Shown one piece after another: positions 18,053-41,999 of a stretch of 46,638 nucleotides of DNA. A model generated the notes under the pieces. It ran no database searches and was not told the DNA's origin. It was given only the letters and a program-made list of their open reading frames with translations. Made by a program: the position numbers and the translations under genes. How positions within the stretch are numbered: position 1 is the stretch's first letter; every line of letters begins with the position of its first letter. The DNA comes from Gordonia sp. UBA7599 (GTDB lineage: Bacteria > Actinomycetota > Actinomycetes > Mycobacteriales > Mycobacteriaceae), in contig DLKD01000040.1 in assembly GCA_002477755.1 (NCBI GenBank), positions 1-46,638 of the forward strand, in the 5' to 3' direction.

Positions 18053-18056
18053 GGCC

Positions 18057-20956: not shown

Positions 20957-21574
20957 ATGAGCGCTCCGGCGGCACCGTCGAATCCACCGACGCAGCGGGA
21001 CAAGAACCGTGCGCGGACCCGCCGCGACATCGAGACCGCCGCCCTGGAACTGTTCGAGGCCAAGGGCTATCAGGAGACGACGGTGGAGGAGATCGCCCGC
21101 ACCGCGGGCTGCTCGAGCGCAACCTTCTTCCGACATTTCGGTTCCAAGGAGGACGTCCTCTTCGCGAACGAGGACGAAGCCGCACGCTCGCTGGCCCGGT
21201 TCACCGCCGACCGCCCCGACCGCTCCCAGCAGCTGGGGGCCCTCGCCCAACCGGTCTCCCAGTTCGCCCAGAGCTTCCTGACCGAGGCGACCTCGGACGC
21301 ACACCGCCTCACCCGACTCGTCATGACCACGCCCGACCTGGAAGCGCGCAGCCTGCGGATGCGGTTGAAATGGGAACACGCCCTCTCGCGCACGCTGGCG
21401 GGCGAGCGCGGCGACGAGGGGCCCAGCTTCGACCAAGTCTTGCTGGCCTCACTCGCAGTGTCCTGCCTGTCCACGGCGCTATGGCAGTGGCAGGACGCCG
21501 GCGACTCGGCTTCCATCGGCGCGGAGACGCTCCGGGCGTTCGAGCGGGCCGCCGCTGCGATCACCGGCGGGTAG
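20957..21574 (+). CDS. TetR-family transcriptional regulator
   Basis: A 205-aa TetR protein. The helix-turn-helix domain is at about residues 17-65: NRARTRRDIETAALELFEAK, then TTVEEIARTAGCSSATFFRH and FGSKEDVLFAN. The C-terminal ligand-binding half is helical and unremarkable (LARFTADRPDRSQQLGALAQ, SLAVSCLSTALWQW). The ATG at 20957 follows the fadD stop by 13 bp. Paired palindromes immediately upstream and in the fadD/amidohydrolase promoter make it the likely repressor of both units and of itself. It converges on the last gene of the mce operon with a 24-bp gap, so it marks the boundary between the island and the import operon. Ligand unknown, perhaps an acyl-CoA made by the FadD beside it. 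Confidence 0.85.
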   Translation: MSAPAAPSNPPTQRDKNRARTRRDIETAALELFEAKGYQETTVEEIARTAGCSSATFFRHFGSKEDVLFANEDEAARSLARFTADRPDRSQQLGALAQPVSQFAQSFLTEATSDAHRLTRLVMTTPDLEARSLRMRLKWEHALSRTLAGERGDEGPSFDQVLLASLAVSCLSTALWQWQDAGDSASIGAETLRAFERAAAAITGG

Positions 21575-21598
21575 CGGCCTGCTCGTGCGTCGGCCGGG

Positions 21599-22087
21599 TC
21601 AGACCGGGTCGAACTTCTCGATCAGCCACTTGCCGTCGATCTTCTTGAGCACGACGCGCACCGAGCTCGCCGAGATCGTCGGCGTCATGTTCGCCGCCGA
21701 GACCGTCGACTGGTTGACGAACAGCAGGGCGGTCGCCGTATCCGGGGCGGCGTTCACGATCGAGGAGCCCACGACTGTGGCCTTGGTGTCGATGCCCTTC
21801 TCCTTCGCGGCCGGCGCGACCACGGTGACGGAGAACTTCTTGTAGTAGTCCAGGAACTGTCCGGTCAGGCGCTTGGTCGCCGCATCGAGATCCTTGTCCA
21901 CCGAGGCGTGGCGGTAGGACAGCACCGCCACCGCACCCGACGAGGCGGCCGCGACGGCCTCGGTCCGGGCGCTCGCCACAGCGCGGTCGTGGGCGCGGAC
22001 GACGAAGTACTGGTAACCGGCCAGCGCGACCAGCAATGCGAGCACCGCAGCCACCACTGCGGTGCGGTGTTCCTTGATCTTTGTCAT
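21599..22087 (-). CDS. Mce-associated membrane protein (Mam)
   Basis: A 162-aa protein with one N-terminal membrane helix (residues about 9-28, TAVVAAVLALLVALAGYQYF) and an extracytoplasmic domain of the Mce-associated fold (DLDAATKRLTGQFLDYYKKF, then ASSVRVVLKKIDGKWLIEKF). Such proteins are encoded at the ends of mce operons; in mycobacteria they are thought to stabilise the transporter complex. The ATG at 22087 overlaps the stop of the upstream Mam gene (ATGA), so the two are coupled. An in-frame start 23 codons upstream would add a hydrophilic extension but is less likely. Last gene of the minus-strand operon. Confidence 0.8.
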   Translation of the reverse strand: MTKIKEHRTAVVAAVLALLVALAGYQYFVVRAHDRAVASARTEAVAAASSGAVAVLSYRHASVDKDLDAATKRLTGQFLDYYKKFSVTVVAPAAKEKGIDTKATVVGSSIVNAAPDTATALLFVNQSTVSAANMTPTISASSVRVVLKKIDGKWLIEKFDPV

Positions 22088-23013
22088 GGGACGAACTCCA
22101 CCTTCGCCATCTTGGGCCCGGGTTTTCCGTCGACCATCGTGACCCGAAGTCGCCACGAGCGGTCCTCGTCCTTAGCCCCGGCGGCGTTGGTCACCTTCGA
22201 CGTCGAGGCGACCAGCACCACGACCGAGCCGTCGGGATTCACCTTCTCCACGCCGGCCTCGCTGACCTGCCCCTTCGTAGTTACCTGGGACTTCTGGACG
22301 ACGTCCACGAAATCACGTGAACGCTTGAGGAAGTCGGCCTTGAAGTCCCCCGTCGACTGGGCCAGAACACGGTCGACGTCGGCCTTGGCGCGGGTGTGGT
22401 CGATGCTCGTCATGTTGACGACCCCCTGCCGGGCGGCGACGACAAAAGCATCGAGACGTTTCTGCTCATCGACTGCGGACCGGTGTTGGAAGAACAGCAC
22501 CGCGTTCACCACCACCGCGGCGATCAGGAGCGCGGCCGCCGCAGCGGCGATGAGCGTCGCGCGGGTCGGGCGCGTCGTCGCGAGGCCCGCCAGCGCGGCC
22601 CCCAGTCGACGGGCAGGCGCGGGGTGCGACTCCGCTTCGGCATCACCTGAACCTGCCGCCTCGTCGTCGACGCCTTCGCTGCCCTTGTCGTCGCCCTCGC
22701 CGTCGTCGCCCTCGTCGTCGTCGGCCTTGTCATCGACAAGCTCGCCAACGGTGGCGTCGGCCTCGTCGGCAGCGGGCTCGTCGTCGGTCTTGTCGAGGCC
22801 GACGGCCTCTGGCTCGCTGAAGGCATCCTCGTCGTCGGCGTCGAGTGCCGCGGCGGCGGCCTTGGCACGATCGGCCGCCGCGGCGGCCTCCTCTGCCGCG
22901 GCAGCGGCGGCCTCGGCCAGATCGGCTGCCTCGCGGGCGCGTTGAGCACGCAGCCGGGCACGTTCGACGGCGTCGCGCGACGTGCTCACGCGGTCGGCAT
23001 CATCTGTTGCCAC
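22084..23013 (-). CDS. Mce-associated membrane protein with long acidic cytoplasmic tail
   Basis: A 309-aa protein in three parts. Residues 14-57 are an Ala/Glu/Arg-rich predicted coiled coil. Residues 58-128 are a very acidic Asp/Glu-rich low-complexity stretch (DDKADDDEGDDGEGDDKGSE). Residues 152-175 are a membrane helix (TLIAAAAAALLIAAVVVNAV). The remainder (FVVAARQGVVNMTSIDHTRA, then VLAQSTGDFKADFLKRSRDF) is a Mam-type domain expected outside the membrane. The cytoplasmic coiled and acidic tail is larger than usual. It starts with a GTG at 23013, overlapping the end of mceF by 28 bp, and overlaps the next Mam gene by 4 bp. It probably joins the Mce complex; a role for the tail in contacting the ATPase or cytoskeletal polar proteins is speculation. 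Confidence 0.78.
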   Translation of the reverse strand: MATDDADRVSTSRDAVERARLRAQRAREAADLAEAAAAAAEEAAAAADRAKAAAAALDADDEDAFSEPEAVGLDKTDDEPAADEADATVGELVDDKADDDEGDDGEGDDKGSEGVDDEAAGSGDAEAESHPAPARRLGAALAGLATTRPTRATLIAAAAAALLIAAVVVNAVLFFQHRSAVDEQKRLDAFVVAARQGVVNMTSIDHTRAKADVDRVLAQSTGDFKADFLKRSRDFVDVVQKSQVTTKGQVSEAGVEKVNPDGSVVVLVASTSKVTNAAGAKDEDRSWRLRVTMVDGKPGPKMAKVEFVP

Positions 23014-24458
23014 GTCCTGGCCTTTCCATCCGACTTCTTCAGGTTCTGCTGCCGATATGAGTTGCCATCGGTATCGACCAGGAACCCGGTCCGGGGGTCA
23101 TAGTAGGCCGCTCCGGTGAGCCCGCCGTTGGAGAAGTCCGGGCGGTAGCCCGACGGCTGGATCGGCCCGCCCGTGGCACCGTTGTTGGTGGTCGGCGTCG
23201 GATTGCCGTACCACGGATTGGTGCCCAACGGCCGGTACGGGTAGGGGCTCTTGCAGATCTTCACGGTGGGGGCGCGCTTGCCCGGCTTCATCATGCACGG
23301 CAGGTTCCGCGCACCGCGGACCGCGACCTGCGTGTTCTGCGGCAGCGCGCAGTACAGGTCGCGCGAGGTACGGGTCGGCGAATCGACGGCAGACCCGTCG
23401 CGGCGGTCCGACGCCGGCAAGAACCCCGTCGTGCACGGCGGAACCGAGTTCAGCGTGCTGGTGTTGAACGAGAGGAACCCGCGGTTGGTACCGCCCATGT
23501 TGGGCACGGCGATCGTCGCCAGCTCGGAGACGCCCTGGGGGATCGCGACGAGGATCTGTTCGAGACTCGGGTTGTAGGTGACACCCACCTCGCCGAGGCT
23601 GACCAGGTTGGCCAATAGCAGCGGCAGTGTCGGGCGGAACTGTTGGAATAGCGCGTTCGCTTGTCCCATCGCCCCGGGGCCCTGTTCGATGATCGCCCGG
23701 ACCGAAGCATCGTTGCGGCCGGTCAGCTGGCCGGTGAGCTGGGCGAGATTCAGCGCCCACCGCCGGATGGCATCGGAGGACACCTGCTGGGACTGCAGCA
23801 CCGGCACCAGGTCGGTGATCAACTTCTTCGTCGGCACAAGATTAGCTTTGGCGTCGGCGGTGAACGCGTGGAAGGCGTCCAACAGGCGCGACATATTCTC
23901 CCCGTTGCCCCCGAACGCGTCGGCCGACTGGGTCAGCAGATCGCCGAGCTTGTCGTTGGGCACGCCCGCCAGCGTCGCGTCGAGATCGTCGAGCAGCGGC
24001 GCGATGTCCTGCGGCACGCTCGTCCGCGACGAGGGGATCACCGATCCGTTGGCCAAATACGTCGTGCCACCGCTCTGCGCTGGATTCGGCCCGCTCGCCG
24101 ACGCACCCGGCGCCGTGACCGGCGGGATCAGGTCGAGGAACTGCTCGCCGATCGCGCTGCGGCTGTGCACCTCGGCACGACTGTCGGCGGGCACGCGCAC
24201 GCCGGAGTCGAGGTCGAGGTACGCGCGGGCGCCCTCGGGTGTCACCTCGACCCGCTTGACGCGGCCGACGGTCTGCCCCAGAAAGGTCACGTTGGAGGTG
24301 GCGTAGAGCCCGCCGGACTCGGTGAGGTCCACCGCGACCTGGTAGCGGCCGAGGCCCGCCTTGTCGGGCACGCGCATGAACCACACCGCCATGACGACAA
24401 TCGACACCACGGTGACCAGGCAGAACAGGACCAGCTGCCATCGGACCAAGCGGCTCAT
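22986..24458 (-). CDS. mceF: Mce-family protein MceF
   Basis: A 490-aa substrate-binding subunit. It has an N-terminal membrane anchor (residues about 7-28, WQLVLFCLVTVVSIVVMAVW), an MlaD/MCE domain at about 38-115 (GLYATSNVTFLGQTVGRVKR, SAIGEQFLDLIPP), a helical tube-forming region, and a Pro/Asn/Gly-rich C-terminal tail (NPWYGNPTPTTNNGATGGPI) of the kind seen in MceF proteins. Six such subunits form a hollow tube that carries lipid between the outer and inner membranes. It begins at 24458, directly after the mceE stop. It is the sixth mce gene in order, which sets the letter. An insertion-free frame, standard ribosome spacing and neighbours support function. Confidence 0.88.
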   Translation of the reverse strand: MSRLVRWQLVLFCLVTVVSIVVMAVWFMRVPDKAGLGRYQVAVDLTESGGLYATSNVTFLGQTVGRVKRVEVTPEGARAYLDLDSGVRVPADSRAEVHSRSAIGEQFLDLIPPVTAPGASASGPNPAQSGGTTYLANGSVIPSSRTSVPQDIAPLLDDLDATLAGVPNDKLGDLLTQSADAFGGNGENMSRLLDAFHAFTADAKANLVPTKKLITDLVPVLQSQQVSSDAIRRWALNLAQLTGQLTGRNDASVRAIIEQGPGAMGQANALFQQFRPTLPLLLANLVSLGEVGVTYNPSLEQILVAIPQGVSELATIAVPNMGGTNRGFLSFNTSTLNSVPPCTTGFLPASDRRDGSAVDSPTRTSRDLYCALPQNTQVAVRGARNLPCMMKPGKRAPTVKICKSPYPYRPLGTNPWYGNPTPTTNNGATGGPIQPSGYRPDFSNGGLTGAAYYDPRTGFLVDTDGNSYRQQNLKKSDGKARTWQQMMPTA

Positions 24459-25580
24459 CTAGCTCCCCCCTCGCAGGATCGGCGCAGTGAGGGGATTCCT
24501 CGTCTTCGGCGTCGGCTGACGGCCAACGGTGCGGCCCAGGAGCGTCTCCAGCATCGTGAGCCGCCCATCCCCCTCGGTCATCTGCAGATACGAGTTGTCG
24601 GCGCGCCCCAGCGTCAGGTCGATCGTGGCGCTGAGGTTGCCGGCGTCGCCGCGGATGAACTTCTTGATACCGGCCTGCGGCCACGGGAACGTGAGCAGCA
24701 GGCCCATCGACTTGGTCAAGTGCGGTCCGGCATTGGCCAGCTGGCGCAACGCCGGCCAGATGTTGGCCAGGTTCGTCGAAATGTCGTCGCCGCTGGCGGT
24801 GACGACCTTGTCGGCGAGGTTGGCGAACTCACCGATCGACATCACCGCGTCACGGATCTCGGCGGTGTTGCCGGCCAACACCTCGAGTGCGGGCGGAATG
24901 GCCACCAGTGCCGCGTCGACTGCGTCAGACCGCCGATTCACCGTCGCGACGAGCCGGTCCATCGACTGTGTTGCGGCGATGATCTGCTTTTGCTGCTGCG
25001 CGAGGCTGCGGGTGAACACGTCGAGATTGCGGATCAGCGCGCGGGCCTGGTCCTCGTGTCCGTTGAGGGCCGCGTTCAGCTGCTGGTTGATTGCGCCCAG
25101 CTGCGCCAGACCGCCGCCATTGAGGACGAAGGAGACCGCCGACAGCGTCTGCTCCGTTGTCGGGTACTTGCCCGCCCGACTCAACGGGATCCGCGACCCC
25201 TGTCCCAAGCGGCCGACCGGCTGCTCGCCCATGGGTGCGGCCAGCGCGATGTGCAGTGACCCCAACAGGCTCGTCTGTGCGACGCGGGCAACAGCGTTGG
25301 CCGGCAAGTCGACCGCGTCCTCCAGCTTGACCGTCACCAACGCGTGCCAGCCGTCGCGCTCGATCTTCGAGACGGTGCCTACGTTCACGTCGTCGACGAG
25401 CACCGGCGAGTTCTGCTCGAGGTTGGTCACATCGGGCATCTCGATCTGCACCGAGAAGCCGCCCTTGCCCTTCGTCCCGGGAAGCGGCAACGAGTTCGGG
25501 TTGGAGTAGCCGCAGCTGCTGATCCCCAGCGCGGTCGCGACGAGCACCGCCGCGACGAACGGTTTGACGGTGCGCTTCAT
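24459..25580 (-). CDS. mceE: Mce-family lipoprotein MceE
   Basis: A 373-aa Mce subunit with a lipoprotein signal peptide: basic MKRTVK, a hydrophobic core and the lipobox ISSC, so the mature protein would be anchored through its N-terminal Cys near residue 23. The MCE domain follows (SVQIEMPDVTNLEQNSPVLV, DDVNVGTVSKIE, RVAQTSLLGSLHIALA), then the long helical part. Lipoprotein status is the hallmark of the E (Lpr) subunit. The frame is open to 25847, but that portion is out of context inside mceD. The ATG at 25580 overlaps the mceD stop by 4 bp (ATGA). Confidence 0.9.
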   Translation of the reverse strand: MKRTVKPFVAAVLVATALGISSCGYSNPNSLPLPGTKGKGGFSVQIEMPDVTNLEQNSPVLVDDVNVGTVSKIERDGWHALVTVKLEDAVDLPANAVARVAQTSLLGSLHIALAAPMGEQPVGRLGQGSRIPLSRAGKYPTTEQTLSAVSFVLNGGGLAQLGAINQQLNAALNGHEDQARALIRNLDVFTRSLAQQQKQIIAATQSMDRLVATVNRRSDAVDAALVAIPPALEVLAGNTAEIRDAVMSIGEFANLADKVVTASGDDISTNLANIWPALRQLANAGPHLTKSMGLLLTFPWPQAGIKKFIRGDAGNLSATIDLTLGRADNSYLQMTEGDGRLTMLETLLGRTVGRQPTPKTRNPLTAPILRGGS

Positions 25581-26932
25581 CGCGGTCCCCTTCCCGGGGC
25601 CTTCAGCCCGTCGGTGCCCATCAGCCCGCGCAGACCCGTGCCGCCACGGACAATGCGAGCGGCGGGGTTCGCGGGGACGAAGACACCGGGCACCGAAGTG
25701 CCCTTCATGCCGGTCGGCGGCCGCAAGTAGGACTGGCTGTAGTCGATCTGGTCCGGACGGGCCTGCACCCCGGCGATCGGGTTGATGCCCACCGGCGGGT
25801 AGTTGAACGCGAGGTTCTTGAGGACCGGCCCCACGTACTCGGCACACCGTCGGGCCGATGCCGCGGCCCCTTCGCCCGAAGCGGACTGGATCGCGCCGCA
25901 GATGAACTGCAGCGGATTCTGGAACTGGGTCACCGTCAGCGCACCGGTCAGCGTGCCCTGCGCGGGTTGGTAGATGTTGTTGAAGTTCTGGAAGGCATTG
26001 GGCCCGACATGCAACAGCTGCTCGATGTCGGGCTGCACCGACTGCAGCGACTTGACCACGGTGCTCAACCGCGCCACCGACCCCGACAGCTTGTCCCGGT
26101 TCTCCCCGACGAACCTGGTCACCTCGGGCATCATCACGCTCAGGCTGGTCAGCGCCGCGGCCAGCTCGTCGGGGCTGTTGGTGAGCGCGGACGTCACGTC
26201 GGCCATCGACGTGTTGAACTGCGCCATCTGTTGGTCGGATGCGGCGAGCGCGGTGACCAACAGCTGCAGGTTGCGGATCGTGGCGAACATATCGCGGCGG
26301 CCGTCGTTCACCGCCGTCATCGCCCGTGTCATCGCGGTGATGGTGTCACCGATCGTGGTGCCCTTGTTCGACAGCGCATCCGCCGACGACGTCACCACCC
26401 GCGCCAACGGTCCCGGCTTGCCACTGCGACTGTCGTCGCCCGCGCCGCCCAGCATCGTGGACAGCTGTTCGAGCTGCTTGCGGAAGTCGTCCCATTCGAC
26501 CGGCACCGCGGTCCGGTCGATCGGGATGACCGCACCCGACTCCAACTGCGGGCCGTCGGCGCTCACGGGGGCGAGCTGGATGAAGCGTGCGCTGACCAGC
26601 GTCGGCGAGAGGATAGCGGCCTTGACGTCGGCCGGCAGGCGGTGCTTCCCACGGACGTGGAACTTCACCTTCATCTTGTCGCCGTCGGGCTTGATCTGAT
26701 CGATCTTGCCGACGTCGACGCCCATGATCTTGACGTTGTCGCCCACGTACAGGCCGTTGGTGTTGGCGAAGTACGCGGTGACATTGGTCTGGGTGGCATA
26801 ACGGTAGGCCTTGAAGCCGAGCAAACCCGCTGCGACGAGGACGACGATGAGCCCGGCCGTGGCGAGACGCCGCTTGGTGAGCCGTGCGCGGAAATCTGCG
26901 ATGTCGTCCCGATACGCTTCGACAATCCTCAT
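25577..26932 (-). CDS. mceD: Mce-family protein MceD
   Basis: A 451-aa subunit with a short cytoplasmic N-terminus, a membrane helix at about residues 24-45 (LATAGLIVVLVAAGLLGFKA), an MCE domain (NTNGLYVGDNVKIMGVDVGK, LVSARFIQLAPV) and a helical region containing the Mce segment QPDIEQLLHVGPNAFQNFNN. The C-terminal Pro/Gly tail (PGVFVPANPAARIVRGGTGL) is typical. It forms part of the hexameric lipid tube. Its end overlaps mceE by 4 bp, and its ATG at 26932 sits 2 bp after the mceC stop, so translation is coupled along the array. Confidence 0.88.
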   Translation of the reverse strand: MRIVEAYRDDIADFRARLTKRRLATAGLIVVLVAAGLLGFKAYRYATQTNVTAYFANTNGLYVGDNVKIMGVDVGKIDQIKPDGDKMKVKFHVRGKHRLPADVKAAILSPTLVSARFIQLAPVSADGPQLESGAVIPIDRTAVPVEWDDFRKQLEQLSTMLGGAGDDSRSGKPGPLARVVTSSADALSNKGTTIGDTITAMTRAMTAVNDGRRDMFATIRNLQLLVTALAASDQQMAQFNTSMADVTSALTNSPDELAAALTSLSVMMPEVTRFVGENRDKLSGSVARLSTVVKSLQSVQPDIEQLLHVGPNAFQNFNNIYQPAQGTLTGALTVTQFQNPLQFICGAIQSASGEGAAASARRCAEYVGPVLKNLAFNYPPVGINPIAGVQARPDQIDYSQSYLRPPTGMKGTSVPGVFVPANPAARIVRGGTGLRGLMGTDGLKAPGRGPR

Positions 26933-26934
26933 GC

Positions 26935-28032
26935 CTAGCCCCCGTCCGTTCTCGGGATGCCCCGCCTACACGTGTCCTTGTTCCGCGGGACCGGTTTGTT
27001 GTCACCGCACGGCACCGGGAAGGTCGTCTGGCCGAGTTTGCTCAAGTCGTAGCCCCGCTCCTCGAACGCCGCATCGATGAACGGCTGGAGGAATTGGCCG
27101 GGCAGCAGATTCATCACGTAGGCGCTGAAGAACGGGCCGCTGGCCACCGACTCCCCCAGGGAGGTCGCGTACTGCTGGAGCGGCTTCACCGACTTGGTGA
27201 TGTCGCCGCGATGCTTCTCCAGCAAGGTGATGAGGCGCTCGAACTCGACGAGCGTCGGCTTCAGTTGCGCCTCGTTGTCGTCGACGAGGACCTTGATCTG
27301 GTCGGACACCGACCGCACGCTGGTCAGCAGCAGGTCGATGGCCTGGCGGCGGCTCTGCAACGCGCCGAACAACTGCCCGCCCGCCAGGATGAGCCCATTG
27401 ATCTGCTCGTTGCGCTTGCCCAGGACATCGCTCATCGCGGCGGCACTCTTCAGCAGCTTCTCGATCTCGTCGTCGCGTGAGCCGATCGTCGTCGAGAGCC
27501 GGTTCACACCTGTCAGCACCGCACCCAGACTCGGGGCGACCGATTCCATCGTGTCGCTCAGCGTCGCCATCGCCGCCTTCAACTGCTCGGCGTCGAGGTC
27601 CTTCGTGTTGACCGTGAGGTCGCCCAGCGCGGAGGTCAGCAGGTAGGGCGACTGTGTCCGCGACAACGGGATCACCGAATTCGAAGCCAGCGGACGGTCG
27701 CCGAGGACGGAGACATCGAGGAACATGCGGCCCAGTGCGCTCTGGGTCTTGATCGCCAGTTCCGAACGGTCCCCGACGGGGGTCGTCGACGAGAAGTCGA
27801 TGCGCACCGCGTCGCCGTCGATGCGGACGTCCTCGACCTTCCCGACGGTGACCCCGGCGACCTGGACGTCATCGCCGACCTTGAGGCCACCGGTGTCGGC
27901 GAAGTGGCCGCCGTAGATCCGGTGCGCGCCGATTAGCGGCAGCGCGTCGTAGTTCAGACCCGCCAGGATGACCATAACGGTGGTGATGATGCCGATCGTG
28001 CCCACGCGCAGCGGGTTGGGAATCCACCTCAT
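26935..28032 (-). CDS. mceC: Mce-family protein MceC
   Basis: A 365-aa subunit with an N-terminal membrane helix (residues about 9-26, VGTIGIITTVMVILAGLNYD), an MCE domain (DTGGLKVGDDVQVAGVTVGK, SALGRMFLDVSVLG) and helical repeats (RQAIDLLLTSVRSVSDQIKV). The C-terminal segment SGPFFSAYVMNLLPGQFLQP followed by FIDAAF is characteristic of the C subunits. The ATG at 28032 (MRWIPNPLRV) overlaps the mceB stop by 4 bp and is preferred to a GTG four codons upstream. Confidence 0.88.
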   Translation of the reverse strand: MRWIPNPLRVGTIGIITTVMVILAGLNYDALPLIGAHRIYGGHFADTGGLKVGDDVQVAGVTVGKVEDVRIDGDAVRIDFSSTTPVGDRSELAIKTQSALGRMFLDVSVLGDRPLASNSVIPLSRTQSPYLLTSALGDLTVNTKDLDAEQLKAAMATLSDTMESVAPSLGAVLTGVNRLSTTIGSRDDEIEKLLKSAAAMSDVLGKRNEQINGLILAGGQLFGALQSRRQAIDLLLTSVRSVSDQIKVLVDDNEAQLKPTLVEFERLITLLEKHRGDITKSVKPLQQYATSLGESVASGPFFSAYVMNLLPGQFLQPFIDAAFEERGYDLSKLGQTTFPVPCGDNKPVPRNKDTCRRGIPRTDGG

Positions 28033-29051
28033 AGCGGCGCACACCTCCCCGCCCGCTGGCCGACGATGTCGATGTAGACCGGGTTGCCGGCCGGGCCGTT
28101 GAGCTTCAGCGTCGCATCACACAGGTAGAAGGTGAAGAAGCTGCCGTACAGGCCCAGTCGGCTCAGTTTCTGATAGCTCTCGGGCAGCTCCCCGAGCAAC
28201 CGGTCGACGTAGGCGTAGTCGTTGTTGACGACCTTCGACACCCGCCCCAACTCGACGACGTTCTGGCTGATGTCGGCGTTGCTCTGGTCCAGCAGGGACG
28301 CGACGCTGCGCGAGGCGTTGGAAATGCCGGCCACCGAGTTCGCGAAACCCGGCGCATCGGCGGCGAGGCCTTTGATGAGTTGGGACAGCTTGTCGACCCC
28401 GGTGTCGAATTCGGCATTGCGCTTCTCGAAGACGCCGAGCACCTCGTTCAAGTTGGTGATGACCGATCCGATCAGTTTGTCCTGGTCGGCCAGACCGTTG
28501 GTGAAGTCCGCAGTTTGCGCCAGGATGGCCTCGATCGATCCGCCCTGCCCTTGCAGCACCTGCACCAACGACTCCGACAGGGCGTTGACCTGCTGGGAGT
28601 TCACCGCCTTGAGCAGCGGTCGGAAGCCGCCGACGAGTGCGTCGAGATCCAGTGCGGGGCTCGTGTTGGTGACAGGGATGAACGCCCCGTCCGCCAGCGG
28701 CGTGACGGCGCCCTCGCCCTCCTTGAGCTCCAGGAAGCGGTCCCCGATCAGGTTCTGGTAGCGGATCAGTGCCCGCGTCGCCTTCGTGAGCGGCACGGAG
28801 GAATCGACACTGAACCGCACGTCGGCGCTGCGTCCGTCGACGACCTTCACATCCTTCACGCGGCCGACGTCGACACCGGCGATGCGCACAACCTCACCAG
28901 GATGCAGACCTGACGCGGAGGTGAACCGCGCGGTGTAGACGTTGGTCGGCCCGAAGCGCATCTGCCCGAAGACGACGACGAGCGCGAGCAGAATCATCAA
29001 CATGACCGCTGCGAACGCGGCGAACTTCACCGCCGTGGCCGTGGACTTCAT
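28029..29051 (-). CDS. mceB: Mce-family protein MceB
   Basis: A 340-aa subunit. It has a membrane helix at about residues 9-29 (KFAAFAAVMLMILLALVVVF), an MCE domain (SASGLHPGEVVRIAGVDVGR, RYQNLIGDRFLELKEG) and a helical body (DLDALVGGFRPLLKAVNSQQ). The C-terminal YGSFFTFYLCDATLKLNGPA is a conserved B-subunit feature. It overlaps mceA (4 bp) and mceC (4 bp) in ATGA junctions, showing a tightly coupled operon. Confidence 0.9.
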   Translation of the reverse strand: MKSTATAVKFAAFAAVMLMILLALVVVFGQMRFGPTNVYTARFTSASGLHPGEVVRIAGVDVGRVKDVKVVDGRSADVRFSVDSSVPLTKATRALIRYQNLIGDRFLELKEGEGAVTPLADGAFIPVTNTSPALDLDALVGGFRPLLKAVNSQQVNALSESLVQVLQGQGGSIEAILAQTADFTNGLADQDKLIGSVITNLNEVLGVFEKRNAEFDTGVDKLSQLIKGLAADAPGFANSVAGISNASRSVASLLDQSNADISQNVVELGRVSKVVNNDYAYVDRLLGELPESYQKLSRLGLYGSFFTFYLCDATLKLNGPAGNPVYIDIVGQRAGRCAPL

Positions 29052-30250
29052 TTCCCCGCCTTGTTCACGATCATCCCCGTGATGTATTCGATGAAGAAGT
29101 TCGTCCCCGGGCGTAGGCTCGTCGACGCCTCCTCGCTGTAACCGGTATCGGTGACCAGGTACGGCGTCGGGTAGTTGGTCGCGGTGATCTGCGAGTAGCA
29201 GCCAGGCGCACCCTTCGGCCCGCCCTTCGCGTTCACCTTCGGCAGGTGCTTGGGGTAGACGTAGCTGTCGTCACCGAAGAGCAGCGCGACGTCGAGGTCC
29301 AGCGAGTAATCGGTGGTGTTGCCGCCGAAGCGCCCCATGCCGTAGTCGAGGTTGTACGACGCCTGATCGGCGACGCACTTGAAGCTCGGTGAGTACTTGA
29401 ACAGCAGGCCCGTGGTCGGGACGAGTAGCCGCGCGACGTCGACGATCTTCGTGCCGGTCGCCTTGAGGAGATCGGAACCAGAGTTGCCCAGACCGATCGC
29501 CGAGGCGAGCAGGGCGTCGAGGTTGCGCTGCTCGTCGACGATGGTCCGCGACGTGACGGTGGCGTTGCTCAGCATGGTGACGATGTTGTCGGCGGCGTCG
29601 CCATAGGTGTCGGCCACCGCGGTGAACCGCCGCAGGTCGTCGGTGATCGTCGGCATCAGCGGGTTGATCTCGGACAGGACGGCGTTGCCCTCGGTGATCA
29701 GCTGTCCCAGCTTGGGCCCGCGCTCGCTCAACGCCTGTGAGATCCCGTTCAGCGTCGCGTTGAGCTTCGCCGGGTCGATCGAGTCCATGACACCGACGAG
29801 GCTCTGAAACAGCGTGTTGACCTCTGTCGTCACGTTGAGCGCCTTGATGGTCTGCCCGTTGGTGACCTTCGGGCCGCCGAAATCGGAGGCCTGCAGGGAT
29901 ACGTACTTCGCGCCGAACGCGGTGGTCGCCTTGATCTGCGCCGAGGCATCGGCAGGGATCAACCCGAACTGCGACGGCTCGATGGCCAGGGTGATCCGGG
30001 CGAGTCGGCCGTCGGTGTTGACCGCGGCGACCTTGCCGACGGTCACCCCGTGCATCTTCACCTTGGCCCCGGGATCCATGACGAGACCGGCACGGTCGCT
30101 GACGACGACGAGTTCTTTGGTCCGTTCGAAGCGGCCGGCAAAGGCGGAGAACGAGAGCGCGACGACCGCCACCAGAACGGCCAGCATCACGATGCCGGCC
30201 ACGGCGTAGCGCGGCTCGTGCCAGTGGCTGCGGGTCGACGTGTCGGCCAT
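29048..30250 (-). CDS. mceA: Mce-family protein MceA
   Basis: A 400-aa subunit, first of the six Mce proteins. It has a membrane helix at about residues 15-36 (AVAGIVMLAVLVAVVALSFS), an MCE domain (DRAGLVMDPGAKVKMHGVTV, TTAFGAKYVSLQASDF), a helical region, and a C-terminal domain with YSPSFKCVADQASYNLDYGM and GCYSQITATNYPTPYLV as in other A subunits. The open frame reaches 30460 but runs into yrbEB. The ATG at 30250 (MADTSTRSHW) is 2 bp after the yrbEB stop and is the natural start. Confidence 0.9.
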   Translation of the reverse strand: MADTSTRSHWHEPRYAVAGIVMLAVLVAVVALSFSAFAGRFERTKELVVVSDRAGLVMDPGAKVKMHGVTVGKVAAVNTDGRLARITLAIEPSQFGLIPADASAQIKATTAFGAKYVSLQASDFGGPKVTNGQTIKALNVTTEVNTLFQSLVGVMDSIDPAKLNATLNGISQALSERGPKLGQLITEGNAVLSEINPLMPTITDDLRRFTAVADTYGDAADNIVTMLSNATVTSRTIVDEQRNLDALLASAIGLGNSGSDLLKATGTKIVDVARLLVPTTGLLFKYSPSFKCVADQASYNLDYGMGRFGGNTTDYSLDLDVALLFGDDSYVYPKHLPKVNAKGGPKGAPGCYSQITATNYPTPYLVTDTGYSEEASTSLRPGTNFFIEYITGMIVNKAGK

Positions 30251-30252
30251 CG

Positions 30253-31104
30253 TCAGCCCGCCAGGTTCAGGTTGCCGGAGGTGCCGTAGATCGCTAGCGA
30301 CACAAGCAAGCACACGATCACGACAGCGATGAGCGAGGACCGCACTGCACGGCCCACCGCGACACCCACGCCTGCGGGGCCGCCGGCGGCGTTGTAGCCG
30401 TGGTAGCAGTGGATACCCATCACCACCAGACCCATGAGGATGGCCTGGGCGAACGACCACACCAGGTCGCTGGGTCTGAGGAAAGTCGAGAAATAGTGGT
30501 CGTACACGCCGGCCGACTGCCCGTTGATGAAGATCGTGTAGAAGCGCGACGCCAGGAATGACATGAGGACCGCCACCGAGTACAGCGGGATGATGGCGAT
30601 GACGCCGCCGATCAGGCGCGTGGAAACGAGGTAGGACATCGAGTTGATGGCCATCACCTCCAACGCGTCGATCTCCTCGGAGATCCGCATGGCGCCCAGT
30701 TGTGCGGTCGCACCGGCGCCGATCGTCGCGGCCAGTGCGATACCGGCGGTAACCGGTGCGGCAATACGCACGTTGATGAAGGCGGCGAAGAACCCGGTGA
30801 GTGCCTCGACGCCGATGTCGCCGAGCGAGGCGAACCCCTGGATCGCCAGCAGCGTGCCGGCGGAGAAGGTCATGAACCCGACGATCACCACGGTGCCGCC
30901 GATGATCGCCAGCGCACCGGTACCCATGCCGATCTCGGCGATCAACTGCAGGACCGCGGTCGCGTAGTAGCGCAGGGCGTGCGGGATCTGACGGACGGCA
31001 TCGCGGTAGAACACCGCCTGCCGGCCGAGGTTTTTCAAGAATCGTTCGGGCGCCCCGACCCGACGCGCCGCCCGTGGATAACGGGTCGCCAAAACATCAG
31101 TCAC
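30253..31104 (-). CDS. YrbE/MlaE-type permease B of the Mce transporter
   Basis: A 283-aa inner-membrane permease with about five to six membrane helices and the MlaE family signature ISEEIDALEVMAINSMSYLV. Other typical segments are IGAGATAQLGAMRISEEIDA and GYNAAGGPAGVGVAVGRAVR. Two YrbE proteins form the channel to which the MceG ATPase and the Mce tube attach. The ATP-binding helix signature EExDAL (coupling to the ATPase) is intact. No MceG/Mkl ATPase gene is present in this window, as is usual because that gene is generally encoded elsewhere and shared. The preceding permease gene ends 28 bp upstream. Confidence 0.92.
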   Translation of the reverse strand: MTDVLATRYPRAARRVGAPERFLKNLGRQAVFYRDAVRQIPHALRYYATAVLQLIAEIGMGTGALAIIGGTVVIVGFMTFSAGTLLAIQGFASLGDIGVEALTGFFAAFINVRIAAPVTAGIALAATIGAGATAQLGAMRISEEIDALEVMAINSMSYLVSTRLIGGVIAIIPLYSVAVLMSFLASRFYTIFINGQSAGVYDHYFSTFLRPSDLVWSFAQAILMGLVVMGIHCYHGYNAAGGPAGVGVAVGRAVRSSLIAVVIVCLLVSLAIYGTSGNLNLAG

Positions 31105-31132
31105 CTCGCACCTCCCCCAGTCGTGCGCGCAC

Positions 31133-31924
31133 TCATCCGGCCGTCGCCTTCACTCCGACCGCGGTCAGGACCACGTTCACCGCGAAGAGCGCCATGAAGG
31201 CATAGACGACGGTCTCGTTGACCGCGGTGCCGACGCCTTTCGGACCGCCGCTGACCGTCAACCCGCGATAGCAGGCCACCAGCGCGGCGATCAGCCCGAA
31301 GGTGCCGGCTTTGATCTCGGAGATGATCACTTCGGGAAGGCCCGTGACCAGGGTGAGACTCGAGACGTAGGCCCCCGGGCTCACGTGCTGGACGTAAACG
31401 GAGAAGAAGAATCCGCCAACGAGGCCGATGGCGACGACTAGCGCGTTGAGCAGCAGGGCCACCACGCACGACGCGACGACGCGCGGCACCACCAACCGGT
31501 GCACCGGATCGATGCCCAAGACCTCCATCGCGTCGATCTCCTCGCGGATGGTCCGGGCACCCAGGTCCGCGCAAATGGCGGTGGCACCGGCACCCGCGAC
31601 GATCAGCACGGTCACCAGCGGGCCGATCTGAGTGACCGAGCCCAGTGCTGCCCCCGCCCCCGACAAGTCGGCCGCGCCGAACTCGACGAGCAGGACGTTG
31701 AGGGTGAAGATCACCAGCACTGTGAAGGGCAGCGCGACCAGGATGGTCGGGAGCAGGGCCACCGTGACCAGGAACCAGGCCTGGTCCAGCGCCTCGCGCC
31801 AGTAGAACGGCCGGCGGAACAGACAGCGCCCAGCCGCGAAGGACAGGCCGAAGAAGCCTCCCGCCGCGGTGACGAAAGGCGCGTACCACGGCGCACGAGC
31901 CGCGGACTTGGTCCCCGCGCTCAC
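31133..31924 (-). CDS. YrbE/MlaE-type permease A of the Mce transporter
   Basis: A 263-aa membrane permease. It carries the MlaE core ADLGARTIREEIDAMEVLGI, LTVSGGPKGVGTAVNETVVY and about six membrane helices. From memory, this core closely resembles mycobacterial YrbE4A, which favours an mce4-like assignment, but that rests on recall rather than alignment. The start is the GTG at 31924 (VSAGTKSAARAPWYAPF); the open frame extends 29 codons further but through the short ORF upstream. The GTG overlaps the TGA of that short ORF (GTGA), and no separate ribosome-binding site is obvious, so coupling to the short ORF is likely to drive its translation. Confidence 0.9.
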   Translation of the reverse strand: MSAGTKSAARAPWYAPFVTAAGGFFGLSFAAGRCLFRRPFYWREALDQAWFLVTVALLPTILVALPFTVLVIFTLNVLLVEFGAADLSGAGAALGSVTQIGPLVTVLIVAGAGATAICADLGARTIREEIDAMEVLGIDPVHRLVVPRVVASCVVALLLNALVVAIGLVGGFFFSVYVQHVSPGAYVSSLTLVTGLPEVIISEIKAGTFGLIAALVACYRGLTVSGGPKGVGTAVNETVVYAFMALFAVNVVLTAVGVKATAG

Positions 31925-32001
31925 GGCAGCCTCTGCTGGAACAGCAGGTACGCGATCGCCTTGACGACGTACAGAATCGGATCGACCAGGTCGAACACCA
32001 T
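31921..32001 (-). CDS. 26-aa hydrophobic small ORF leading the yrbE-mce genes
   Basis: A short frame starting ATG at 32001 and ending TGA at 31921. It encodes 26 residues beginning MVFDLVDPILYVVKAIAYLL and ending in a polar, basic tail with QQR. It has a good ribosome-binding site (AAGGGGAGG about 10 bases upstream) and ends in a GTGA overlap with the permease A start. It is half hydrophobic (one possible amphipathic or membrane helix). It may be a leader peptide that sets translation of the permease, or a small subunit of the transporter. I know no named family. The evidence is the start signal, the exact coupling overlap and the position. Confidence 0.55.
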   Translation of the reverse strand: MVFDLVDPILYVVKAIAYLLFQQRLP

Positions 32002-32041
32002 CAGATCTCACCCTCCCCTTGTGGACCGGCAGTATGCCCGG

Positions 32042-33426
<1,385 letters not shown>

Positions 33427-33448
33427 GTAGTCCTCCCAGTGGCCGCGA

Positions 33449-34342
33449 TCAGCGGTCGATCTGGTCGCGCAGCTCGTCGGGGATGGCGCCGGAGGTGATG
33501 TCCTCACTCTGACCCAGGTCGGTCGGGAAGATGATCGAGGTGCGGGCGAACTGGCCGCCGTCAGCCGAGGCGATCGACTGCCCGGTGGTGTAGCGCGACT
33601 CGTCCGAGGCGAGGAACAGCGCCAGGTTCGCGTTGTCGCGGATGACCGGCGGGGTGTCCACCCGCAGCGGCATCGCGCGGTTGTCCGGGTTCCACTCGCC
33701 CATCATCTCCTCGTAGGACTTGCCCAACACCTCGGCGTCTCCGGGCAGTGCGAAGTTCACCGACATGCCGTGGGTGGGACAGATCGCATTCGCGCGGATC
33801 CCGTACTTCCCGAACTCCAGCGACGCGGCGCGGACCAGCCCGTTGACGGCGGCCTTGGACGCCGCGTACATCGGGAAGCCGGGGTAAGCGGTGAACGCTG
33901 CGGCCGACGAGGTCGCCAGCAGCGTGCCTGGGCGCTTGTTGTCGATCATCCAGCGCGCGGCCGCCCGGAAGGCCAGGTAGATGCCGGTCGTGTTGACCGC
34001 GAAGATGTTGTTCCAGTCCTCCAGCGACGACTGGTGCAGCGGCTGCATACCGAAGCCGGGCTCGGGGATTCCGGCGTTGGCCCACATGACGTCGATCCGT
34101 CCGTAGTCCTCGACCGTCTTCTCGACGAGTGCGTTCATATCGGCCTCGACGCGCACATCGGCCTCGATGGCCGATGCGGTGCCGCCGGCCGCGACGATCT
34201 GGTCGACGACGGCCTGGGAGCGCCCGGGCACGATGTCGCTGACGACGACCTTCGCCCCCTCTGCGGCGAACATCAGGGCGCCTTCGCGTCCGAGTCCCGA
34301 TCCGCCGCCGGTGATGGCAACAACCTTGTCCTTCATACGCAT
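33449..34342 (-). CDS. SDR-family oxidoreductase
   Basis: A 297-aa short-chain dehydrogenase. The NAD(P) motif TGGGSGLG is at 11-18, NAG at 89-91, and the catalytic set is Ser145/146, Tyr159 and Lys163 (YAASK). The C-terminus is about 30 residues longer than average (RTSIIFPTDLGQSEDITSGA). It likely oxidises a hydroxyl made by the P450, or reduces a ketone. It starts with ATG at 34342 after a GAGAGGA ribosome-binding site; a second ATG two codons later is possible. It lies 22 bp before the P450 gene and 34 bp after the aldehyde dehydrogenase gene in the same operon. Substrate unknown. Confidence 0.85.
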   Translation of the reverse strand: MRMKDKVVAITGGGSGLGREGALMFAAEGAKVVVSDIVPGRSQAVVDQIVAAGGTASAIEADVRVEADMNALVEKTVEDYGRIDVMWANAGIPEPGFGMQPLHQSSLEDWNNIFAVNTTGIYLAFRAAARWMIDNKRPGTLLATSSAAAFTAYPGFPMYAASKAAVNGLVRAASLEFGKYGIRANAICPTHGMSVNFALPGDAEVLGKSYEEMMGEWNPDNRAMPLRVDTPPVIRDNANLALFLASDESRYTTGQSIASADGGQFARTSIIFPTDLGQSEDITSGAIPDELRDQIDR

Positions 34343-34376
34343 GGTGAGAGTCCTCTCGAAGATGTGGTGGTGGTTG

Positions 34377-35846
34377 TCAGTGGCTCGGGCTGGCGATCGA
34401 CTTGATCCGCAGGTATTCGCGGAAACCGGCGACGCCGTGCTCCACTCCGTCGCCGCTGATCCCGAAGCCGCCGAACGGTGCGTCGGGTGAGAGGTAGAAG
34501 GAGTTGTTGATGTTGACAGTGCCGGCCCGGAGCTTGCGGGCCACGGCCCAGGCGCGCTCCTCGTTCGTGGACTGGACGTAGCCGGACAGGCCGTAACGGG
34601 TGTTGTTGGCGATGCGCACGGCCTCGTCGTCGTCACCGTCGTACTTGATGACCGACAGGACCGGGCCGAACACCTCGGTCTGGGCGATCTCGGCGTTCTC
34701 GTCGACGTCGACGAGGACGGTCGGCTCGAACCAGAAGCCCTTGTCCTGCGGACCGCGCTTGCCGCCGACGAGGATGCGGGCGCCATCGGCCTCGGCGCGC
34801 TTGACCAGCCCCTCCATCCGCTCGAGCTGCTCGAGGCGGATGATCGGTCCGACCAGGTTCCCCGGATCGTTGGGGTCGCCCCACGGCAGGTGCCCGACCA
34901 TCATCTCCAGGCGGGCCAGGACGTCGTCGTAGATGCTCGCATGCACGATCATGCGGGTCGCGAGCGCACAGCCCTGGCCGCTGTTGGACATACACATCGC
35001 GACACCGAGGCCGCAGGCCATGTCGAGGTCGGCGTCGGGTAGCAGGATGTTGCCCGACTTGCCGCCGAGTTCGAGCACGGTGTGCCGGATGCCGTTCGCG
35101 GCGCGCTCGGCAATCCGCTGGCCGACGCCGGGCGAACCGGTGAAGTGGTAGAGGTCGAAGCGTTGATCGGCGGTCATCGCGTCTCCGATGGTCCCCTTGT
35201 CCGACGCGCTCAGCGTGTGGAAGGCACCGCTCGGGACGTCGGTGGCCTCGTCGATGACCTTCGCCATCAGGGCTGCGGTGAGCGGGGTGTCGGGGGCGCT
35301 CTTGAGGATGACGGCGTTACCCGTGGCCAGCGCGTGGTGGACCTTCCACAGGGCGGTCATGAACGGGGCGTTCCACGGAGTGATGGCGCCGACGACGCCG
35401 TAAGGCTCGTAGCGGACCTGCCGCTCGCTGAGGTTGCCGAGGATCTCCCATGGCCCGAGGTCCTCCTCCCACGGGAAGGACGTGATCAGGTCATTGAAGA
35501 AGTCCATCCCCTCGATCATGAACCCGACGTGGGTGAGCATGTTGGCACGCGCGACGCCCGCTTCGGCGACGAGGAGGTCCTCGAACTCAGCCTGTCGCGC
35601 CCGCAGGCCGTCCTGGAACTGGAGCATGCACTTCTTGCGGAAGTCGCGGTCATTGCCCCAGTCCGAGGTGTCGGCGAACCCACGCGCCGAGGCGATGGCA
35701 TCTTCGAGGTCCTCGACCCCGGCGTCGGCGGCCAGCGCGATCACCGACTCGTCGGTCGGGTTGATCACCGGGTAGGTGTTGCCGGACCGCGCGTCGCGGA
35801 ACTCCCCGGCGATGTAGAGCCGACCCTCGGGCTGCGTTGCCGCCAT
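34377..35846 (-). CDS. Aldehyde dehydrogenase (NAD(P)-dependent)
   Basis: A 489-aa member of the ALDH superfamily with all active-site residues: Asn159 (ITPWNAPF), general base Glu259 (TVLELGGKSGN) and nucleophile Cys293 (NSGQGCALATRMIV). It also has the conserved TGSPGVGQRI cofactor loop. It should oxidise an aldehyde to a carboxylic acid. The ATG at 35846 follows GAGGAG. It is the first gene of the long minus-strand operon that ends with the mce and mam genes, and it faces a tetR gene across a 170-bp intergenic region with a perfect palindrome, so this is the main control point for the operon. Confidence 0.92.
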   Translation of the reverse strand: MAATQPEGRLYIAGEFRDARSGNTYPVINPTDESVIALAADAGVEDLEDAIASARGFADTSDWGNDRDFRKKCMLQFQDGLRARQAEFEDLLVAEAGVARANMLTHVGFMIEGMDFFNDLITSFPWEEDLGPWEILGNLSERQVRYEPYGVVGAITPWNAPFMTALWKVHHALATGNAVILKSAPDTPLTAALMAKVIDEATDVPSGAFHTLSASDKGTIGDAMTADQRFDLYHFTGSPGVGQRIAERAANGIRHTVLELGGKSGNILLPDADLDMACGLGVAMCMSNSGQGCALATRMIVHASIYDDVLARLEMMVGHLPWGDPNDPGNLVGPIIRLEQLERMEGLVKRAEADGARILVGGKRGPQDKGFWFEPTVLVDVDENAEIAQTEVFGPVLSVIKYDGDDDEAVRIANNTRYGLSGYVQSTNEERAWAVARKLRAGTVNINNSFYLSPDAPFGGFGISGDGVEHGVAGFREYLRIKSIASPSH

Positions 35847-35971
35847 GAGTACTCCTCGTTGAGTAGTGGCCACGGGGCGGGGCGAACTCTCTGGTCTGCG
35901 CCTACATCCCGGGCTGGGGGTGTGATTTCAATCTCACGAATGATTTAACTATAAAGAGTCTTATCGAGTCA

Positions 35972-35988
35972 AGGGAGTGTTACTCCCT
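35972..35988. promoter_or_regulatory. Perfect palindromic operator before the ALDH-mce operon and tetR
   Basis: AGGGAGT-GTT-ACTCCCT is a perfect 7-bp-arm inverted repeat in the 170-bp gap between the divergent ALDH (35846) and tetR (36017) genes. The regulator encoded at 36017 is the likely binder. AGAGTCT at 35955-35961 and TGCGAAACTCT at 36002-36012 look like weak relatives of the TGNNAGACTCTNNCA sites found at 19-21 kb. No KstR-type AACNNGTT core is present here. Confidence 0.55.
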
Positions 35989-36016
35989 AACGGGAAAACT
36001 GTGCGAAACTCTCCTT

Positions 36017-36652
36017 ATGGACGCGAGCCCGCTGCGCAAGCGGCGATCGACACAGCAGGTCAAGAGCCTGATCACCGACGCCGCGTACGAGGAGTTCGCC
36101 AAGACCGGCCTGGCGGGCACCAGCGTGCGGACGATCGCGCAACGGGCTGGCGTCACCGAATCCGCGGTCTTCCGCCACTTCCCCACCAAGCCCGCCCTCT
36201 TCGAGGCCGCCGCCGTGGCCCCCGTCGTCGACTTCATCCGGGACTACGCAGCGTCGATAGCCACGACCGTGGACGAGGAGCCGTTCGACGTCACGCTCCG
36301 GTTCATCTCCGGCCTCTACGACATCTTCGACGCCAACGACCGGATCCTGATCTCGCTGGCCTCCGTCAGCGCCGCTGCCGACGACGGCGCACAGGAGCCC
36401 GCACCGGACTCCACCCCTCCCCTTGAGCGGTGTGTGGATGCGCTGTTGGCGGGCGTGATGGACTACATAGTGCTGTCGGAGACGAGTGCCACCGAGGACC
36501 TGCGGACCTCGGTGCGGTTAGCCATGGCACTGGTCATGGGCACCGTCCTGGGCAGCCGCGGACTGCTCGCCCCGTCCGATGACATCGAGACCACCAAGCG
36601 CACGTTGGCCCGCTTCGTCCTTCTCGGATCGGGATTCCGACAGGAGGGCTAA
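36017..36652 (+). CDS. TetR-family transcriptional regulator
   Basis: A 211-aa TetR protein. The helix-turn-helix domain covers about residues 10-58: STQQVKSLITDAAYEEFAKT, then TSVRTIAQRAGVTESAVFRH and FPTKPALFEAA. The C-terminal domain is helical, with a Pro-rich loop (AQEPAPDSTPPLERCV). It starts with ATG at 36017. It faces the ALDH-mce operon and is followed 9 bp later by an alpha/beta hydrolase gene, so it probably controls both the import operon and its own operon through the palindrome at 35972-35988. An intermediate released by the hydrolases or the P450 route is a plausible inducer. Confidence 0.87.
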   Translation: MDASPLRKRRSTQQVKSLITDAAYEEFAKTGLAGTSVRTIAQRAGVTESAVFRHFPTKPALFEAAAVAPVVDFIRDYAASIATTVDEEPFDVTLRFISGLYDIFDANDRILISLASVSAAADDGAQEPAPDSTPPLERCVDALLAGVMDYIVLSETSATEDLRTSVRLAMALVMGTVLGSRGLLAPSDDIETTKRTLARFVLLGSGFRQEG

Positions 36653-41950: not shown

Positions 41951-41985
41951 GGAATTCCCCTGCATGTCGTATTGAAACGATTAAC

Positions 41986-41999
41986 TAGAACCTGTTCTA
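41986..41999. promoter_or_regulatory. KstR operator
   Basis: TAGAACCTGTTCTA is a perfect match to the known KstR consensus TNNAACNNGTTNNA and a perfect 14-bp palindrome. It lies between the divergent fadE34-like and kstR genes, where KstR should repress both until a 3-oxo-steroid CoA thioester binds. Confidence 0.92.

Follow-up and report, generated by a model that had tools for sequence, protein, structure and literature searches.

Closest described systems

The mce4 operon (supAB-mce4ABCDEFHI) appears as a sterol import operon of Mycobacterium, Rhodococcus and Gordonia in passages of two studies (PMC6678751, PMC6498646). An operon of related build lies in Gordonia sp. UBA7599, on the minus strand at 21599-35846 of the 46,638-nucleotide stretch analysed here (the window), which is contig C24 of a 3.8-Mb draft genome. 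Ahead of its importer genes stands an oxidation cassette encoding an aldehyde dehydrogenase (ALDH), a short-chain dehydrogenase (SDR), a cytochrome P450 and a ferredoxin, followed by a small open reading frame (ORF) for a 26-residue microprotein. The best explanation of the block, held here with good though not full confidence, is a TetR-controlled catabolic operon that joins a Mce4-like importer to the P450 cassette.

The likeness to mce4 extends to the same ten-gene order of permease, Mce and Mam genes, and the mce4 operon of R. ruber is listed with an SDR gene (fabG) and a ferredoxin gene beside it in the same passages (PMC6678751, PMC6498646). In contrast to mce4, the window operon has no KstR box, carries P450 and ALDH genes, has a putative TetR operator of its own and belongs to a different clade. 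The mce1 operon resembles it in placing a catabolic enzyme gene, fadD5, first and ahead of yrbE/mce in one operon, as stated in part of PMC2867952; however, that gene encodes a single CoA ligase, whereas the window has a four-gene oxidation cassette. The M. massiliense island MmGI-1 holds both a run of P450, SDR, ALDH, 63-amino acid ORF and reductase genes and an mce operon, although the sections of that account drawn on here place the two ~40 kb apart and not in one operon (PMC4263727). Stand-alone ALDH-SDR-P450-ferredoxin cassettes of Nocardia and other bacteria consist of homologous genes, mostly 56-82% identical, and share the same operator, but have no mce operon behind them.

A search confined to the open-access PMC literature, with subscription papers outside its coverage, found no recognised account of the fusion or of the microprotein. 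A term search of the accessible text of Casali and Riley (PMC1810536) returned no P450, ferredoxin, short-chain or aldehyde dehydrogenase. New here are the joining of a Mce4-like operon to a TetR-controlled P450 cassette and the microprotein family, the latter being the most novel part.

Organisation of the operon

When rebuilt from sequence, the block comprises 14 protein genes and the 26-residue ORF, in the order ALDH, SDR, P450, ferredoxin, small ORF, YrbEA, YrbEB, MceA-F and two Mam-like proteins. An earlier note on this DNA had given the same order on one strand, which the rebuilt block bears out, but had counted only thirteen protein genes besides the small ORF. The junction gaps, in gene order, are 34, 22, 8, 40, -4, 28, 2, -4, -4, 2, -4, 0, -28 and -4 bp. 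All 14 are at most 40 bp; the note's description of most genes as overlapping or less than 35 bp apart holds for 13 of them (at most 34 bp), the exception being the 40 bp between ferredoxin and small ORF. Three products, that of the small ORF and the Mam-like pair, have no Pfam match; Pfam names all the others.

The cassette opens with the ALDH gene (34377-35846; PF00171, 433 bits), whose best NCBIfam model, TIGR04284 (Rv0768 type), scores 482 bits, under its cut-off of 775. The SDR gene (33449-34342; PF00106/PF13561) and the P450 gene (32242-33426; PF00067) follow, the latter encoding a haem-Cys motif in a region conserved in all seven aligned relatives. The single-cluster ferredoxin (32042-32233; PF13459) has a C-x2-H-x2-C...CP motif, read from the DNA as C-V-G-H-A-Q-C...CP, and among PDB entries it matches best the ferredoxin portion of a ferredoxin-CYP143 chain (77 bits). 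The haem-Cys signature and the adjacent single-cluster ferredoxin together mark a P450 with its cognate ferredoxin.

The stop codon of the small ORF (31921-32001) overlaps the start of yrbEA (GTGA). The permeases YrbEA (31133-31924; PF02405, 202 bits) and YrbEB (30253-31104; PF02405, 192 bits) carry EEIDAME and EEIDALE motifs, respectively, both read from the sequence. MceA (29048-30250), MceB (28029-29051), MceC (26935-28032), MceD (25577-26932) and MceF (22986-24458) match MlaD and Mce4_CUP1, and MceA also reaches the TIGR00996 cut-off. MceE (24459-25580) matches MlaD, with a Mce4_CUP1 score of 29.7 bits that is below cut-off and a lipoprotein-like signal, ...LGISSC, seen in the sequence. 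Two PF02405 proteins followed by six MlaD proteins is the order that defines an actinobacterial Mce operon. The Mam-like proteins 1 (22084-23013) and 2 (21599-22087) belong to no Pfam family and are named for their position and for homologs in related mce operons, which for the first lie after mceF. A candidate ABC ATPase for the importer is encoded at C46:13173-14150, being 76% identical to the one that accompanies a related mce operon on a plasmid; its assignment to a Mkl/MceG type is a label of our own.

Recurrence in a second genome and age of the cassette

The earlier note had proposed looking for this gene order in other Mycobacteriales, and Gordonia sp. HKST-UBA34 (genome G324, loci L061 and L101) carries the whole fusion: TetR, then ALDH-SDR-P450-ferredoxin-small ORF-yrbEAB-mceA-F-mam1-mam2. 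Identities between the two are 65-84% for the cassette, 81-89% for YrbE and 56-65% for MceA-F. In HKST-UBA34 a CoA ligase match starts 62 bases past the mam2 match and is 51% identical to the product of the window gene at 12813-14423. An artefact of a single genome was considered and rejected, as the fusion recurs in G324. The arrangement is more than chance: the order recurs in this second Gordonia and the operator described below is found in nine of nine distinct cassette loci.

The fusion is complete in two of 59 Gordonia genomes, and the cassette P450 is present in three; the third, G315, has no mce match nearby and no mceA match at E 1e-60. At that threshold mceA is matched in 16 of the 59, with only the window and G324 (60%) above 39% identity. 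The P450 itself was matched in 2/397 genomes at order level (E 1e-110) and 15/301 at family level (1e-60), own genome included in both counts. Stand-alone cassettes, having a P450 of at least 70% identity with ALDH, SDR and ferredoxin and no match to the window mce proteins within the fetched stretch, occur in G123 (twice), G106, G096, G315 and Nocardia alder85J, while the Actinomadura physcomitrii locus consists of ALDH, P450 and ferredoxin and gave no match for an SDR. In a contig scan, mce matches lay within 10 kb of the P450 in three of 14 relatives (at least 54% identity; L115, at 33%, left out). One of these is the fused L101, and in the other two, L107 and L109, the mce genes are on the other strand ~8 kb away.

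The cassette tree (support 100) and an eight-protein mce tree (99) both pair the window with L061 as sisters, and in the second of them L082 comes next. The latter tree covers 12 loci, was rooted on L126 by choice and has in-frame stops set to X, with L061 mceF represented by the better of two pieces; L085, a contig fragment, was left out of all trees. A smaller tree of YrbE alone disagrees, grouping L061 with L082 at 80. The yrbEB of L082 (9168-10015) is itself in two pieces, which could be an assembly error. As both halves are sisters in the trees, a single old fusion is suggested, kept while MceA-F diverged to 56-65% identity, and the keeping of the order over such divergence would point to selection on the linkage. 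On these comparisons, the cassette existed as a stand-alone unit, with a predicted operator of its own, before an mce operon was joined to it.

Putative promoter and operator, and regulators

A TetR-family regulator (36017-36652, plus strand; Pfam TetR_N) is encoded divergently from the operon and is probably its local repressor. Homologs 42-50% identical lie divergent from the cassette in other loci. Between the ALDH and TetR genes is an operator-like palindrome, AGGGAGTaaCACTCCCT (35972-35988), that directly abuts TTGAC, with a box of the TTARAT type, TTAAAT-like in the window, 17-18 bases further on. The palindrome and promoter precede ALDH with 0-2 mismatches in all nine distinct cassette loci, namely the window, L061, L031, L032, L033, L034, L102, L105 and L118. 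Here L031 and L032 are from one genome, and L034 and L033 each have a second copy, L103 and L104, respectively. At L118 the nearest TetR homolog is ~10 kb off.

The operator occurs once in its own genome at up to one mismatch; two more sites appear at two mismatches, no more than a reversed control pattern gave. Among the stretches of at least 8 kb that were compared, the one match outside a cassette has two mismatches and lies inside an mce operon (L195). Tightly behind the TetR gene, on the plus strand, are two alpha/beta hydrolase genes (36662-37552 and 37549-38454; PF00561/PF12697).

KstR is encoded outside the operon (41972-42721, plus strand; NF033703, 336 bits, cut-off 280). A scan of the window found no KstR box upstream of the operon, its sole KstR box (41986-41999) lying between kstR and a double acyl-CoA dehydrogenase gene. 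Control of the operon by KstR was considered and rejected on this ground, and the non-KstR palindrome that the earlier note had seen at the promoter proved to be the conserved AGGGAGTaaCACTCCCT. The region holding kstR, its box and the double acyl-CoA dehydrogenase gene (39707-42721) is 6 kb from the KstR-box-free operon.

Relation of the importer to mce4

The genome has 14 MlaE-family matches in about seven mce loci. An operon on contig C115 has an SDR gene upstream and KstR-like boxes and is taken, from these features, as the genome's putative mce4. It is also the nearest paralogue of the window operon in the genome (YrbEA 72%, MceA 35% identical). In a midpoint-rooted YrbE tree the window mce genes fall close to operons from Rhodococcus plasmids and from related genomes, and away from the C115 operon. 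The window operon has neither of the two marks used for mce4 membership, an upstream KstR box and grouping with the KstR-boxed operon of the same genome.

It might nonetheless be a diverged mce4 steroid importer, with the P450, SDR and ferredoxin as steroid side-chain genes that lie near kstR by descent. The presence of kstR and the double acyl-CoA dehydrogenase gene in the window, the closeness of the mce4-like operon as a paralogue and the naming of the best P450 matches in the PDB as CYP125MRCA (165 bits) are in keeping with this. However, the window has no KstR box except in the gap between kstR and the acyl-CoA dehydrogenase gene, and the C115 operon, with its SDR and KstR-like boxes, is a separate one, so that the KstR-controlled mce4 raised as an alternative by the earlier note is found elsewhere in the genome. 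The YrbE tree separates the two, with the window clade split off at 100. The flank of the operon carries PtmU3-type enzymes, and in a scan of the flank proteins no NCBIfam steroid model other than that of KstR reached its cut-off among the matches listed. A steroid importer is considered unlikely.

Importers of this type may have been coupled with monooxygenases repeatedly, as oxidative genes stand just upstream on the same strand in two of nine gene-called related mce loci. At L094 (11996-15225) a P450-ferredoxin pair is followed by COX3- and COX4-like genes, the run standing ~210 bp ahead of yrbEA, and Gordonia G172 has a P450 90% identical to that of L094 (C10:132288-133454). At L087 (11531-14943) an FMO-like monooxygenase and an ALDH gene overlap by 4 bp and lie ~110 bp ahead of the mce operon. 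At L107 and L109 a P450 is more than 1 kb upstream of mce.

Flanking pathway and cargo

Genes for acyl-CoA dehydrogenases, several CoA ligases, an enoyl-CoA hydratase and a thiolase-like protein lie in the left flank (1-21 kb), along with those for two PF04909 proteins. The first of these two (4218-5315, minus strand) is an amidohydrolase-type oxygenase like PtmU3, with 425 bits in phmmer over 347 aligned residues and a D-x-H, H, E, D-x2-H-x-E pattern that aligns with PtmU3, the ligands being assigned by eye. The second (18057-19265, minus strand; PtmU3 76 bits) has the same ligand pattern, likewise read by eye. By sequence, both have the PtmU3-like dinuclear ligand set, from which an oxygenase role is predicted. 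PtmU3 is a diterpenoid beta-hydroxylase acting on CoA-linked substrates, as reported in part of PMC7782822, and such proteins are named amidohydrolase-related dinuclear oxygenases in sections of PMC10811679. A PDB entry named DitZ also matches both proteins, and a literature search on DitZ returned nothing relevant. In G324, the PtmU3-like gene (C202:8570-9658) has one in-frame stop, which could be an assembly error.

All three Gordonia genomes with the P450 cassette carry both PF04909 proteins. At E 1e-60 the PtmU3-like protein is matched in seven of the 59 Gordonia and the second protein in eight, which leaves 4/56 and 5/56 among those without the P450. Hypergeometric values for the co-occurrence, calculated by hand and uncorrected for kinship, are 35/32509 and 56/32509. 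At 74-75% identity or above the counts are 5/59 and 6/59 (2/56 and 3/56 without the P450), this cut being chosen after seeing the data. One of the two PF04909 genes lies at 73% identity or more in the fetched flank of ten of 15 P450 loci. Gordonia G317 has the same pathway cluster, with SDR-ALDH inside it and no such P450. The co-occurrence and the G317 cluster together tie the SDR, ALDH and P450 to the flanking pathway. As that pathway includes a PtmU3-type protein, a cyclic terpenoid-like compound is the best guess for the cargo, albeit a rather doubtful one.

These links also bear on an alternative in which the Mce system acts on envelope lipids or transports outward and the P450 cassette modifies an endogenous lipid. 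Envelope roles have been proposed for some mce operons, as repeated in passages of PMC4263727 and PMC6498646. In contrast, genes of the acyl-CoA degradation type accompany the cassette in Gordonia, Nocardia and Mycobacterium, and Mce1 and Mce4 are described as importers in the portions of the literature used. An envelope role is therefore given very little credence here, far less than the catabolic operon.

Many of the genes of the cluster at 1-21574 are also found in Gordonia G317 and G324, in Nocardia and on the M. branderi plasmid pJCM12687. Within it are an atypical acyl-CoA dehydrogenase (5417-6766), a family-less protein (14512-15546) and, at 15587-18052, one ORF combining GNAT acetyltransferase and NDP-forming acyl-CoA synthetase domains in this catabolic setting.

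The microprotein family

The small ORF of G324 has the same place and length as that of the window, a GTG start, a Shine-Dalgarno-like sequence and 11 of 25 residues identical after the start. The family is 26-28 residues long with a consensus of approximately MIIDLVDPIxxLVxAIAWLLxRGxLPP, and has members in other mce loci. A hidden Markov model search of 351 genomes gave 13 strong matches (E <=4e-13) in nine genomes, of which nine are independent and four are rows of the model itself (G000, G143, G092, G238:823473). Each of the 13 has mce or mam genes no more than a few kb away; three weaker matches (E 1e-4 to 6e-3: G251, G016, G143:1500456) were dropped with their neighbours unchecked. In tblastn with a plasmid member, nine of 72,556 plasmid records matched, all from Rhodococcus, and a second query returned the same nine. 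Every one, a R. oxybenzonivorans record included, also has a MceA match, with mceA and the microprotein ORF 7 to 12 kb apart, and no feature lies under any of these matches in the PLSDB gene table, which is incomplete. No phage record was matched by the microprotein query.

Seventeen members were listed (window, L061, L086, L091, L094, L099, L188-L190, L192-L199), covering 17 of 18 loci, as the script missed L191, which tblastn had found. Eight of the 17 start no more than 40 bp after a mam2 match, four follow an ABC ATPase gene, two precede yrbEA, one precedes a P450-ferredoxin-mce run and two are on the strand opposite mce. Codon comparisons of L099 with L192 (nine synonymous, no non-synonymous) and of L188 with L192 (16 and 5) place the differences between close members mainly at third positions, which suggests purifying selection at the protein level. 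Taken by itself, the window-L061 pair is without this pattern (11, 8 and 12 differences at codon positions 1, 2 and 3).

The small ORF was also considered as a chance frame. In the first comparison just two sequences agreed (41 BLOSUM points), and among 14209 background ORFs of 20-40 residues there were six better matches; these fell at four separate places, each in a locus with mce genes. A chance frame is rejected given the conserved family and the 13 of 13 strong matches beside mce or mam. No similar ORF was found behind the ferredoxin in eight stand-alone cassette loci (seven distinct). The sequence comparisons thus indicate that the small ORF is real and belongs to a conserved mce-linked family left unannotated.

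The protein has one hydrophobic, mildly amphipathic stretch, and its PDB matches are designed coiled coils only, i.e. a heptad likeness. LucB, LucA, OmamA and the Mam proteins resemble it as small membrane proteins tied to Mce importers, according to parts of PMC9882608 and PMC6678751. Compared by description, however, LucB has helices up to TM4 in the relevant passage of PMC9882608, whereas the microprotein has 26-28 residues and a mce-linked gene. At that length it lacks the several transmembrane segments that mark LucB and LucA. It is possibly a new Mce component.

Proposed mechanism

In the proposed model, whose co-transcription, regulation, cargo and microprotein role are all inferred, the local TetR would sit on the palindrome abutting the -35 box in the absence of inducer and keep the promoter shut, and a pathway compound would release it. 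This repression and release is suggested by the architecture and its conservation. The transcript would then yield the Mce4-like importer (YrbEA/B, MceA-F, Mam), powered by a Mkl-type ATPase encoded elsewhere, together with the P450 and its own ferredoxin, SDR and ALDH. The importer would take up a hydrophobic molecule, the P450 would hydroxylate it, SDR and ALDH may convert the alcohol to a carboxylic acid, and CoA ligases may activate the acid for the acyl-CoA pathway of the left flank, in an order deduced from the enzyme types. The 26-residue protein would probably be associated with the membrane, as a small component or partner of the importer. The earlier note's suggestion that import and oxidation are made in a fixed ratio is probably too strong, because translation levels often differ among the genes of an operon.

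Several observations weigh against this model. Most cassettes are without mce genes, so import and oxidation are not obligatorily paired, and L082, the closest mce operon outside Gordonia, has no cassette. SDR-ALDH pairs in G317, G310 and L112 stand apart from such a P450, and the operator was not found at them; SDR and ALDH may therefore act on a later intermediate and not on the P450 product. For a further SDR-ALDH locus, L108, the operator comparison covered ~130 bases of upstream sequence. Five of the 15 P450 loci have neither PF04909 gene in the fetched flank, and the oxygenase cluster of HKST-UBA34 is on another contig. At L061 the gap between ferredoxin and small ORF is 103 bp, leaving room for a second promoter, and mceF (17579-18983) is in two frames, which in this metagenome assembly could be an error. 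The operon strand of the window also has two sites near the junction, both at chance frequency: a promoter-like one (32312-32284) at the P450 3' end and a terminator-like one (32186-32170) within the ferredoxin gene.

Part of this would also be expected of two functionally unrelated units brought together by chance, one the TetR-P450 cassette in its stand-alone form, the other an mce operon transcribed from a weak promoter of its own. Cassettes without mce and mce operons without a cassette are both common, and the 103-bp gap and the two sites fit such an origin. Yet the junction is kept in two genomes whose MceA-F are 56-65% identical, both halves are sisters in the trees, and the window gaps around the small ORF are 40 and -4 bp. 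The scan of 21400-36200 gave one promoter-like and five terminator-like sites in all, at or below shuffle level (means 1.1 and 5.6), and neither kind in the gap between ferredoxin and yrbEA; it did not list the proposed operon promoter, whose -10 box departs from the scan rule. The earlier note had held that a transcription start between ferredoxin and yrbE would speak against one operon, and the sequence scan gave no promoter-like site there. A chance neighbourhood of two units is judged improbable, and a single TetR-controlled catabolic operon is preferred.

Implications for Mce systems

A wider proposal has two parts that must hold together. In one, the microprotein is an unrecognised subunit, or an assembly or regulatory partner, of the Mce4-like importer clade, encoded at shifting positions. 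In the other, one TetR site in Gordonia switches together the uptake and hydroxylation of a terpenoid-like compound and, in one genome, also its CoA activation. The two jointly are put forward tentatively, at a little less than even confidence.

The cargo of most Mce systems is unknown. Where an importer is locked to the first oxidation enzymes and one repressor, the ligand of the repressor and the substrate of the P450 can be expected to indicate what is imported. Should the microprotein prove to be a subunit, Mce systems would gain a new component, overlooked by annotation owing to its size.

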